Shown here: piece by piece, positions 6,342 through 17,861 of the stretch
Layout: each line of letters starts with the position of its first letter
Numbering within the stretch: the stretch's first letter is position 1
From: a virus
Length of the DNA: 20,157 nt
IMG/VR virus record: IMGVR_UViG_3300032282_000504
Location: 1-20,157 of that record
Direction: 5' to 3' (one strand)
Translations under genes and position numbers: made by a program
The notes under the pieces: model-generated
What the model saw: the letters and a program-made list of their open reading frames with translations, nothing else
Databases searched by the model: none
What the model was told of the DNA's origin: nothing

Positions 6342-6908
6342 TTATTTATAAAACATTACATAAACAATCCTTCCTGAACCCCATCCTACGTTAGGATACT
6401 TACTATGAAAGTAATTACAAGGGTACATCAAAGCCCTATTAATCTTATAGCCAACCACTGTTTGTAATTCCCATCTGTCTATATTGTTTGACTCCTTGTC
6501 CAACACGTCGTCATATTGTTCGAACGATACGTTGTTAGGTAAACAATCTCCAAGCTCTTTGTGTTTCCAAAATGCAGTGCCATGTAACCCATTCATATTA
6601 GACGGAGATAAGTATAATACCAAAGCCCTGTCAGGTCTCTCTCCATCTATAATAGCATCAGAATGAATGTTCCAATCCGTGTCTACCTTATCGGTAGCTA
6701 CCCTAAAGAAACTAAGTATGTTTCTTCTTCTTGTATCTTCAACTTTGCTTATCTTATCTAAAACTAATTCATCAAACTCAGGTGTACTTAATTGAACCCA
6801 AAATGATTTATCTCCTACATCAACTTTATTAAAGTCGTTTGAAGTTAACTTATTATAAGTCTCATTATATGTATTGCTATCTAAAAAGTTATCGATTATG
6901 TTTATCAT
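6342..6908 (-). CDS. 2-oxoglutarate/Fe(II)-dependent oxygenase-like protein
   Basis: A 188-residue protein that looks like a double-stranded beta-helix dioxygenase of the prolyl-4-hydroxylase type. The facial triad fits: H82-S-D84 in WNIHSDA, distal H168 in YFHSKYP, and R180 (GRIVYV) 12 residues later, the usual place for the arginine that holds 2-oxoglutarate. The segment GTAFWKH (110-116) and the strand ALVLYLSP (95-102) also fit this fold. Such enzymes hydroxylate amino-acid side chains or nucleic-acid bases using oxygen and 2-oxoglutarate; the substrate here is unknown. The gene overlaps the upstream gene by 4 bases (ATGA) and the next gene starts 2 bases after its stop, so it belongs to the packaging transcript. 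Such oxygenases are recurrent in marine phages. Confidence 0.65.
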   Translation of the reverse strand: MINIIDNFLDSNTYNETYNKLTSNDFNKVDVGDKSFWVQLSTPEFDELVLDKISKVEDTRRRNILSFFRVATDKVDTDWNIHSDAIIDGERPDRALVLYLSPSNMNGLHGTAFWKHKELGDCLPNNVSFEQYDDVLDKESNNIDRWELQTVVGYKINRALMYPCNYFHSKYPNVGWGSGRIVYVMFYK

Positions 6909-7468
6909 AACTTTATAGTTATCTGATGGTCAAACATTCTGTACATCTTCTCGCCATCTATATTAAACTCATACTCGCTATCAGGAGTAAAGCAAACCAT
7001 ATCCCCACTACTTATGCCGTTATTTTTTAAGTAATCGTTTGGGTATACCATAACACCCATTAATGGCTCATTAGTAAAAGGCTTCTTGATGTAACTATCT
7101 ATGGCAGGTATTGGCTTAACAAAGCAGTACCTGTCGTACGCATACCATATACCATCCTTCTTGAACATGTAGAACTGATCTAACTCTATTAGAAACTTAT
7201 CGTCCTTAAAGAAACTCTTGCCGCTCTTTTGTACACCCTTTACATCGTTGTAATACTTGAACACGTTGTGGTGAACAAGCAATATGTCTCCGGGTTCTAT
7301 AGGTCCTTTATATCCTAAAGGTGTAGACACAACAACAGCATATCTATTAGAAAAGTTATGATCCTCCTCAGATGTGCTGACAATAAAATCCTTTCCCCCT
7401 ATATCTTTGGTGTTGTCGTATCGCTTATTTTTTAATGGTTTCGCAATGAAATAAAATGGAGATTTCAT
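6905..7468 (-). CDS. Possible tandem GroES-like protein (HHNVF family)
   Basis: A 187-residue, beta-rich protein. The first part (about 5-120) begins FYFIAKPL, then has NRYAVVVSTP, IEPGDILLVHHNVF (57-70) and ends DQFYMFKKD...YCFVKPI; the order 'opening strand, regulatory strand, GD-V/I-V strand, closing strand' is that of a GroES barrel. The second part (about 115-187) repeats it in short form: YCFVKP, LMGVMVYP, GISSGDMVCF, then EYEFNIDGEKMYRM. I recall related HHNVF proteins from marine phages but cannot verify their annotation. The GroES-like reading is inference from strand pattern only. It is co-transcribed with the oxygenase and terminase genes, far from the true groES of this phage. It could equally be an unrelated structural protein. 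Confidence 0.4.
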   Translation of the reverse strand: MKSPFYFIAKPLKNKRYDNTKDIGGKDFIVSTSEEDHNFSNRYAVVVSTPLGYKGPIEPGDILLVHHNVFKYYNDVKGVQKSGKSFFKDDKFLIELDQFYMFKKDGIWYAYDRYCFVKPIPAIDSYIKKPFTNEPLMGVMVYPNDYLKNNGISSGDMVCFTPDSEYEFNIDGEKMYRMFDHQITIKL

Positions 7469-15430: not shown

Positions 15431-15880
15431 ATGGCGGAAAGAAAACACGATTTTTTAAAATATTGGAGGGTTATTAGATACTTCGTTAAGCAGAAGTACA
15501 ACCTATCACAAGCAGACCTAGACATTATATTGTTCCTATACTCGGAGGAGTACTTCGACCAAGACAAGTTCAGCGAGTTTGACGAGCTGCTTAGTTGGGA
15601 TAAGAAACGATTTACGCACCTAGTGCGAGACGGTTGGATCGAGTCCTTCCGTAAGAAGAACCCTACCTATAGAAGGTCTCTATATAAGCTGTCGTATAAG
15701 GCTGTTAGGTTATGCCTGTCCATATACAACAAGCTTAGCGGGGAAGAGATCCCTACAAGCGACTGCCATAACCCTATGTTCGCAAAGAATGTTAGGTACA
15801 CAGACAAGGTATACCGCAACATGATCAAGTCTATGAACAAAGAGTTTAGGACCGCTAGGTTAAACTCTCGCAACGACTAA
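15431..15880 (+). CDS. Winged-helix (MarR-like) DNA-binding protein
   Basis: A 149-residue protein and the only plus-strand gene in the first 19 kb. The start is MAERKHDFLKYWRVIRYFVK. The segment YNLSQADLDIILFLYSEEYF (about 23-42) followed by FSEFDELLSWDKKRFTHLVRDGWIESFRKK (about 47-78 by segments) has the helix, helix-turn-helix and wing order of MarR-type proteins; YKLSYKAVRLCLSIYNKLSGEE (about 87-108) would be the dimerisation helix. I recognise it as a recurring type in phages of marine Bacteroidota. It is divergent from the late block across a palindrome and could control that promoter and its own. It ends 7 bases before the groES stop, so the two genes converge. Confidence 0.6.
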   Translation: MAERKHDFLKYWRVIRYFVKQKYNLSQADLDIILFLYSEEYFDQDKFSEFDELLSWDKKRFTHLVRDGWIESFRKKNPTYRRSLYKLSYKAVRLCLSIYNKLSGEEIPTSDCHNPMFAKNVRYTDKVYRNMIKSMNKEFRTARLNSRND

Positions 15881-15887
15881 CGTCCTA

Positions 15888-16145
15888 TCACAGCACGACC
15901 ACAACGTCGCCCTCTCTTATGATCGTACAGTGAGCCTCGTCGATCACCATCGTGAACGAACGACCTTTGTCGTAGTACACCACGTCGTCTACCTTTATGT
16001 CAGACACCTCTGTGCCCGGAGCAACTACAGTCGCCTTCTTGTACCTCATCTGATTAGCGTCCTCGCCTGATAACACCAAGCCTGACTCTGTTACTATCTC
16101 CTCGTCTATGTTTTTTACTACTATGTATTTCCCTATTGGTTTCAT
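15888..16145 (-). CDS. groES: Co-chaperonin GroES, roofless form
   Basis: An 85-residue lid protein for the chaperonin encoded upstream. Core strands match GroES: MKPIGKYIVVK at the start, ATVVAPGTEV (38-47), IKVDDVVYYDK (50-60) and CTIIREGDVVVVL at the end. The mobile loop that docks on GroEL lies at about 15-32, with LVL (23-25) at the place of the E. coli IVL docking tripeptide. Between APGTEV and DIKVDDVV the protein lacks the approx. 10-residue hairpin (E. coli about 45-57) that forms the roof of the lid. Phage T4 gp31 also lacks this roof, which enlarges the cage for its capsid protein. Two genes downstream of groEL in the same direction, 3 bases after the 29-residue gene. Confidence 0.88.
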   Translation of the reverse strand: MKPIGKYIVVKNIDEEIVTESGLVLSGEDANQMRYKKATVVAPGTEVSDIKVDDVVYYDKGRSFTMVIDEAHCTIIREGDVVVVL

Positions 16146-16250: not shown

Positions 16251-17861
16251 TTATACAGCGTCGTAGCTACGAGCCATGGTTATGATTGCGTTCGTGCTTA
16301 GTATGGTCACGGCCACCGACATAGCGTTCTCAAGCGCACACCGAGTCACCTTCAACGGGTCTATCACCCCTAGCTTTATCATGTCTCCGTACTCGCCCGT
16401 CTTCACGTTATACCCAACGGTGTTATCTACGCCCGACACCCCACGCCCGTACACGTGTTCGTACGTCAGCCCTGCGTTTATCAGTATCTGATTGATGGGC
16501 GCCCCTAGTGCGTGCATCACGATCCTCGTGGCGTGCTCCCTGCCGCCGATCTCTAACTCCACCGAGTTGAGCGCATGCCCTCCACCGGCAAGGATGCCCT
16601 CCTCCATGGCCGACTTAACCGCACACACGGCGTCGTCCACCCTGTCGTACAACTCCTTCTGCTCCAAGTCGGTGTTGCCACCGACGAATATAACACCGAT
16701 ACCGCCCGTAAGCGATGCGATCCTCTCCGCTATAAAGTCCTTGTCCACCTTCTTGTTGGCCAACTTGTGTGCGTCCCATAGCTGAGACACCCTCTGCTCC
16801 ACCACGATAGACTCCACACCCACGTCGCTCTTCATCAGCACCGTCTTGTCCTTACCGACGATAGCCCTGCGCACGTGGCCTAGGTCCTCCATGGTGATAT
16901 GACTCAGGTCGTCCCCGGTCTTCTCGCTAAAGTAAGTTGCTCCGATAGCCACCGCTATGTCCTGCATCAACTCGTGCTGCTTGTACCCGAAGTTAGGCGG
17001 AGCGACAGCGCACACCTTTATGTTTCCCTTCATCACGTTAGCCGCCAACGTGTTCACCACGTTAGTGCTGCACGGAGATATAATAAGTAACCGCTTGCCG
17101 CTAGCCACGATTGGTTTCAGTATCGCCTCGATCTGCAATATGTTTGGTATCTCGATGTCCGCCACTAATACACACACGTCGTCCATCACGCACTCGTCCT
17201 TCTTGTTGTCGTTTATAAACAGCGGGGACAGATACCCCCGGTCGATCTTTATCCCGTTGGTCACCTCCACATACGTCTCAGTGGTCTGCGACCTCTCCAC
17301 CGCAACCACGCCGTTGCCTCCCACCTGCTTGTACACCTCGGCGATCATCGCGCCCAACACAGGGTCGTTGTTGGCAGAGATAGTGGCGACGTCCACCAAC
17401 ATCTCGTCCGTCACGTCTACGGCCATACCCTTTAACTTGTCCACCACCTCGTCGCATATGTCCACCATGTCTCTTAGCACCACGTTCTTGTTCACGCCAT
17501 CCTCACCCAACACAGCAGACCCGGCCAACACCAAGGCCTCGGTCAGCACAATAGCAGTCGTCGTCCCGTCACCCGCAGACGTCGCCGTCTTGTCGGCAGC
17601 CTCCTTCATCATCTTAACCGCTAGGTTCTCTATCGGGTCCATTAAGTCCACAGACTTAGCCACCGTCACACCATCCTTAGTCACCGTTATACCATGGGTA
17701 TGATTAGGAGACTCTATCAGCACAGTGTTGCCGCTAGGTCCTAACGTGCTCTTTACAGCCTTAGCCATCTTAGTTACGCCGCTTATTAACCTCGACCTTG
17801 CGTCGTCGTCGAAGTTTAAGTTCTTGGGTGAGTACCCTTGGTTTGTATTCATCGTGTTCAT
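16251..17861 (-). CDS. groEL: Phage chaperonin GroEL (Hsp60) with changed ring interface
   Basis: A 536-residue group I chaperonin, full-length in all three domains. Catalytic and nucleotide residues are kept: LGPSGNTV (40-47), TKDGVTVA with D63 (E. coli D52), AGDGTTTA with D98 (E. coli D87), EEGILAGGG (420-428) and D410 (E. coli D398). Apical landmarks DRGYLSPLFI and MQDIA are present, but E. coli GFGDRRK is NFGYKQH here. Aligned by hand to E. coli GroEL, the inter-ring residues differ: K105 to A116, a gap of about 7 residues spanning E434, R452 to N457, E461 to T466, S463 to E468, V464 to H469. The C-terminal GGM tail is absent (ends ITMARSYDAV). GC content is about 57-65% in lines sampled, against about a third in nearby genes, so acquisition from another genome or strong codon selection is likely. 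It leads the groEL, 29-aa gene, groES operon from the promoter at 17896-17920. Confidence 0.93.
   Translation of the reverse strand: MNTMNTNQGYSPKNLNFDDDARSRLISGVTKMAKAVKSTLGPSGNTVLIESPNHTHGITVTKDGVTVAKSVDLMDPIENLAVKMMKEAADKTATSAGDGTTTAIVLTEALVLAGSAVLGEDGVNKNVVLRDMVDICDEVVDKLKGMAVDVTDEMLVDVATISANNDPVLGAMIAEVYKQVGGNGVVAVERSQTTETYVEVTNGIKIDRGYLSPLFINDNKKDECVMDDVCVLVADIEIPNILQIEAILKPIVASGKRLLIISPCSTNVVNTLAANVMKGNIKVCAVAPPNFGYKQHELMQDIAVAIGATYFSEKTGDDLSHITMEDLGHVRRAIVGKDKTVLMKSDVGVESIVVEQRVSQLWDAHKLANKKVDKDFIAERIASLTGGIGVIFVGGNTDLEQKELYDRVDDAVCAVKSAMEEGILAGGGHALNSVELEIGGREHATRIVMHALGAPINQILINAGLTYEHVYGRGVSGVDNTVGYNVKTGEYGDMIKLGVIDPLKVTRCALENAMSVAVTILSTNAIITMARSYDAV

Follow-up and report, generated by a model that had tools for sequence, protein, structure and literature searches.

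A GroES-paired phage GroEL in which the ring–ring contacts of bacterial GroEL are lost, and which may work mainly as a single ring

All six conserved ring–ring contact residues of E. coli GroEL are replaced in the GroEL encoded by the window, the 20,157-nucleotide stretch of viral DNA analysed here, and the same face is hypervariable in the phage clade to which it belongs. We put at roughly 60% the probability that this phage GroEL is a GroES-capped, mainly single heptameric ring without a maintained ring–ring interface. We favour the single ring because all the contact positions changed together, to acidic or variable residues. Moreover, the surfaces that serve the ring, ATP and GroES are fixed while the ring–ring face is variable, as expected of rings that assemble and engage GroES but no longer contact each other.

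It has long been asked why GroEL should need two rings and how GroES is released from a single one, mostly in work on the engineered mutant SR1 and on mitochondrial Hsp60. In this clade nature seems to have done the experiment: evolution removed the ring–ring interface from a group I system paired with GroES while the other working surfaces were held fixed. Its dozens of homologues, about 70% identical, would serve for testing which changes permit single-ring cycling, and E. coli from which groEL can be depleted would offer an assay for this group I phage protein. The phage family that carries the GroEL/GroES pair is widespread and water-living.

The phage GroEL and its GroES

The GroEL gene lies on the minus strand at 16251..17861, with its start codon at 17861, and encodes 536 aa; the plus strand of the same interval is not open and contains many stops. 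The product matches Pfam PF00118 (Cpn60_TCP1, 1e-52) and PHROG 5725 (groEL, 3e-130). Against TIGR02348, the NCBI GroEL equivalog, it scores 430.7 bits, below the cut-off of 582.1 bits; it is a divergent GroEL homologue outside that equivalog. The Cpn60 domain architecture and the fold of a group I chaperonin are present, as judged by Pfam, AlphaFold and Foldseek.

Next to it, at 15888..16145 on the minus strand, is a gene for a GroES of 85 aa (Pfam Cpn10, 9e-11; PHROG 3188), in which the mobile-loop motif GLVLSG is present and the nine-residue roof hairpin is missing. That this gene adjoins GroEL argues against a co-chaperonin-free function. A GroES match was found at 79 of 80 loci of the clade; the clade GroES sequences inspected keep the mobile loop as [GI/GL][VIL]LSG, and their roof hairpin is shorter by about nine residues. 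T4 gp31 is likewise without a roof.

Ring–ring contact residues of the phage GroEL

How much of the E. coli interface does this protein retain? Residues were mapped by aligning the protein with E. coli K-12 GroEL in MAFFT and with solved GroELs in HMMER. At the left site K105, at the end of helix D, corresponds to A116 (codon at 17514..17516) and A109 to E120 (17502..17504). At the right site the salt-bridge residues R452 and E461 correspond to N457 (16491..16493) and T466 (16464..16466), and the contacts S463 and V464 to E468 and H469 (16455..16460); all of these codons are on the minus strand. In E. coli numbering the changes are K105A, A109E, R452N, E461T, S463E and V464H. An earlier note on this DNA had paired the four right-site residues in this way by hand, and both kinds of alignment agree with it; its pairing of K105 with A116 also stands, and to these A109E, absent from the note, adds another relevant change. 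It had also recognized correctly that the four right-site positions are those of SR1, in which R452E/E461A/S463A/V464A splits E. coli GroEL (PMC12696368; PMC2741606).

How well are these positions kept in bacteria? From 80 diverse bacterial GroELs we defined the residue classes K/R105, A/S109, R/K452, E/D461, S/A/G463 and V/I464. The class is retained in 80/80 sequences at each of 105, 109 and 452, and in 79/80 at each of 461, 463 and 464. K105, R452, E/D461 and V/I464 are each found in 23/23 Bacteroidota GroELs, in line with the note's statement that R452 and E461 are kept in that phylum. The window GroEL has lost 74 of the 271 positions that are at least 98% conserved in bacteria, all six contacts among them (hypergeometric P 3.6e-4). 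The conserved, staggered ring–ring contacts that mark group I (105, 109, 452, 461, 463, 464) are absent from it.

Two single losses were set aside. The stretch from helix N through the loop to helix O (16506..16568, minus strand) is indeed seven residues shorter than in E. coli, the gap lying between GGGHAL and GAP, where E434 would fall, as the note had observed. However, the E434 position is variable across bacterial GroELs (A, G, E and D, among others), so the deletion is uninformative alone and was dropped as evidence of interface loss. Loss at 461 alone was dropped because 14-mers are formed by chloroplast Cpn60-beta despite its N461, and E. coli E461K still forms double rings; E461K, E434K and K105A mutants all crystallised as double-ring GroEL, so that one change by itself leaves the rings joined.

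Might equivalent contacts persist at shifted positions, in an ordinary GroEL-type double ring? The protein does keep a GroES partner, and its fold is closest to that of E. coli GroEL. An AlphaFold2 model of the single chain, made with 54 sequences (pLDDT 83, pTM 0.65), has the usual three-domain layout, and its best Foldseek match is E. coli GroEL (E 1e-48, TM 0.71), the TM-score probably being limited by domain rotation. In the model helix D spans 100–118, helix N is cut to 429–432 and helix Q is short, at 467–471. But right-site positions 446–466 of the window and E. coli proteins align gap-free, as a pair of 21-residue stretches that includes HALGAPINQILINAGLTYEHV. This leaves no room for a shift and rules out a shifted-contact alignment in that stretch, where we found none of the displaced contacts that the earlier note had named as telling against its claim. 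Near the face, no column of the clade alignment is conserved as an interface would demand. We regard such a double ring as improbable.

Variability of the ring–ring face in the phage clade

Do the relatives of this GroEL share the loss? Of 362 relatives recovered by scanning IMG/VR, 80 were retained; together with MW202828 and the window these make 82 GroELs, or 40 non-redundant ones (<90% identity; median identity 72%). The bacterial class is retained in 22% of the 40 at position 105, 12% at 109, 20% at 452, 17% at 461, 42% at 463 and 5% at 464. Among the 82, K105 has become E in 48, A109 has become E, P or D in 74, and V464 has become D in 47 and E in 13; the commonest replacement of E461 is K, in 39. 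Between the two rings A109 touches A109 and V464 touches V464 (PMC2741606), and an acidic residue stands at 109 and/or 464 in 80% of the 40. Opposite charges at 452/461 occur in only 6/40.

The six contact columns fall in the 88th–99th entropy percentile of the clade (permutation p about 1e-5), and in the 86th–100th percentile in 12 sequences of <75% identity from which the window was excluded. Their mean entropy is 2.61 bits, and position 452 reaches 3.3 bits. The most variable columns cluster at 104–111, 423–448 and 452–471, which are the end of helix D, the N–O loop and helix Q; the equatorial domain holds 42 of the 52 most variable. These data show, at the level of sequence, that the ring–ring face of the clade has been lost and freed from constraint.

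Could this face simply have drifted along with the whole protein, and so be uninformative on assembly? The divergence is certainly large, the window GroEL being 38% identical to bacterial GroELs, with a different consensus in 57% of columns. Other surfaces, however, changed once and were then fixed. In the within-ring stem loop 34–52, 63% of the columns have changed from bacteria, with an entropy of 0.33 bits in the clade; for the apical GroES/substrate residues the values are 62% and 0.20 bits. Strand 513–523 has 0.14 bits. The ATP site (TLGP 30–33, D52, DGTTT 87–91, D398, D495) is identical in the window GroEL, each element is kept in at least 39/40 clade GroELs, and its mean entropy is 0.17 bits. 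The within-ring contacts were checked for the pattern of the ring–ring face, and it was not found there; only the ring–ring face is both changed and variable (permutation p below 1e-5 against matched conserved columns). We consider uninformative drift very improbable.

A private interface

If the GroEL-type interface is gone, have the rings acquired another? The earlier note had left two outcomes, a single ring or a new interface. The fork was the right one, and the clade data favour the single ring; an interface that is private, weak or ATP-dependent is nonetheless compatible with the sequences. Such rings might, for example, meet 1:1 in register, as in phage EL, and split in the course of the cycle. 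EL gp146, like the window GroEL, has lost the canonical contacts; its apo form is a double ring joined by unique contacts, and in ATP at 100 mM KCl its rings are single (PMC7185714). Within the clade K461 might find a partner in D/E at or near 464, and in E. coli GroEL the mutation E461K makes residue 461 touch E434 instead of R452 (PMC2741606). On the other hand, the window GroEL has T at 461, E at 109 and the E434 stretch deleted, and the clade has no conserved replacement residues: the end of helix D, 423–448 and 460–471 are hypervariable, as is 452. EL itself differs from the window GroEL (27% identity) in its private 1:1 interface, its lack of GroES and its altered helices. The elements of its ring–ring interface, an extended helix N1/N2 and a loop replacing helix Q, do not appear in the window model, where helix N is short and a short helix Q is kept.

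A control on the EL family bears on how far variability can be read. The EL contact residues are not conserved among EL relatives, though EL is an apo double ring, and this weakened hypervariability as a proof of single rings, a use of it that we rejected. What hypervariability excludes is a shared GroEL-type interface, a weak private one being compatible with it. Human mHsp60 forms double rings with few contacts in its ATP state (PMC7174398). We judge a new, private or nucleotide-dependent interface in the phage protein to be unlikely, and prefer the mainly single, GroES-capped ring.

Comparison with known chaperonins

Single-ring phage chaperonins are already known. OBP gp246 and AR9 gp228 form single heptameric rings, and the chaperonins of OBP, EL and AR9 reportedly function with no co-chaperonin (PMC9598537). 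The window protein resembles OBP (compared by description only) and AR9 in being a phage-encoded GroEL homologue; single rings were seen there and are proposed from sequence here. Those proteins come from jumbo phages and reportedly have no co-chaperonin, whereas the window's relatives have genomes of ~60 kb, and their GroEL is near group I, with GroES adjoining; the AR9 chaperonin is ~26% identical to the window GroEL. Because OBP, AR9 and EL act without a co-chaperonin and GroES adjoins here, a GroES-paired group I relative with the same kind of loss, in ~60-kb podovirus-like phages, appears to be a new variant. MW202828 (Podoviridae sp. ctfjg026, Manatee Spring) belongs to the same clade; its GroEL is 60% identical and adjoined by GroES, and the record annotates groEL only, with no word on the interface. 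A literature search brought up no paper that treats the ring contacts of phage GroELs paired with GroES; the virioplankton GroEL survey of Marine et al. 2017 lay outside its coverage.

Beyond phages, the closest likeness is to SR1, in which the same four ring–ring positions are changed; but SR1 is engineered and traps GroES, whereas the phage GroEL is also changed at 105, at 109 and over its apical face. Mitochondrial Hsp60–Hsp10 is a natural GroES-type system, and mHsp60 demonstrates that a natural single ring can work; its right site still relies on E462 and S464, and with ATP it assembles into double rings (PMC7174398), whereas none of the residues at that site is fixed in the phage clade. 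In ACI, a resurrected ancestral chaperonin, V464E is present, and its single ring is ascribed to changes at the same positions (PMC12696368); ACI is an inferred, non-phage ancestor.

Apical changes and the release of GroES

How might GroES leave such a ring? SR1 with wild-type GroES is trapped, and engineered single-ring GroEL cycles only with weakened GroES binding (PMC5575113). A single ring therefore requires a solution to release, one that we can only infer here. The apical changes L234E, V263A and V264A are fixed in 40/40 clade GroELs, and E257N is present in 39/40. In the window the first is E245 (codon at 17127..17129) on the apical GroES/substrate helix H, and the next two are A273 and A274 (17040..17045) on apical helix I, both on the minus strand. 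On the client/GroES-binding helices these three residues are charged or small, the bacterial ones hydrophobic. Mutations of E. coli GroEL at 234, 263 and 264 impair the binding of client and GroES, and the phage GroES has presumably co-adapted to the apical changes.

Other features of E. coli GroEL are altered as well. With D83T one allosteric salt-bridge residue is gone; R197, E386D, D155 and R395 remain. The gly-met C-terminal tail is found in 0/40 clade GroELs, against 72/80 bacterial ones; a tail-less single ring may have an open floor (the tail end of the window GroEL is at 16251–16270). Among the sites of E. coli mutations, 92 and 399 are unchanged and 191 is lost; some of these sites are said to have emerged as SR1 suppressors in the hands of Sun et al. 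2003. In one paper E191G appears only as groEL44.

Tentatively, we propose that a clade of ~60-kb aquatic phages, probably on Flavobacteriia, has a group I chaperonin that is tail-less, capped by GroES and obligately single-ring, and that goes through its cycle with no second ring; in it, fixed apical changes would replace the trans-ring release signal and the contacts would prevent mixing with host GroEL. The phage ring would bind client protein and ATP; phage GroES would then cap it and the client, probably phage structural proteins, would be folded; and GroES would leave without a signal from a second ring, through hydrolysis within one ring. L234E, V263A, V264A and E257N may lower the affinity for GroES enough to permit release, and the altered contacts may stop phage rings from combining with host GroEL.

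Phylogeny, host and neighbouring genes

Was this GroEL recently captured from a host? In the tree the phage clade forms one side of a branch (SH-aLRT 95), apart from bacteria, and recent capture was rejected on this ground; the branches of EL and AR9 reach the length limit, so that their placement is not interpretable. The GroELs of Bacteroides phage DAC22 and of a 735-kb phage fall inside Bacteroidota and have retained R/K452, E/D461 and V464; by placement and residues, these are later captures from hosts. In the GroELs of the Vibrio phages K469, VAP7, K382 and YC, R452 and V464 are also lost, and no GroES is annotated within the stretch examined.

The window carries a terminase gene (PHROG 6681, 2.5e-175) and a portal gene (PHROG 6547, 1.5e-141). 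The terminase shares 78% identity with its counterpart in MW202828 and 45% with those of the Flavobacterium elemo phages, and its other matches are only to Cellulophaga, Tenacibaculum, Azobacteroides and Maribacter phages. Because of these matches the host is likely to be one of the Bacteroidota, probably in Flavobacteriia.

Three further genes deserve mention. A 187-aa protein (6905–7468, minus strand), encoded in the virion/tail module apart from the true GroES, matches PHROG 13932, 'co-chaperonin GroES' (5e-17), and has no Pfam match; by eye it may consist of two GroES-like barrels. Also on the minus strand, 6342–6908 encodes a protein of 188 aa that matches both PHROG 1644 (minor coat) and Pfam DUF6445. 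A 149-aa ORF (15431–15880, plus strand; PHROG 17028) adjoins GroES on the opposite strand, and MW202828 has at the corresponding place, in the same orientation, an ORF annotated 'repressor protein'.
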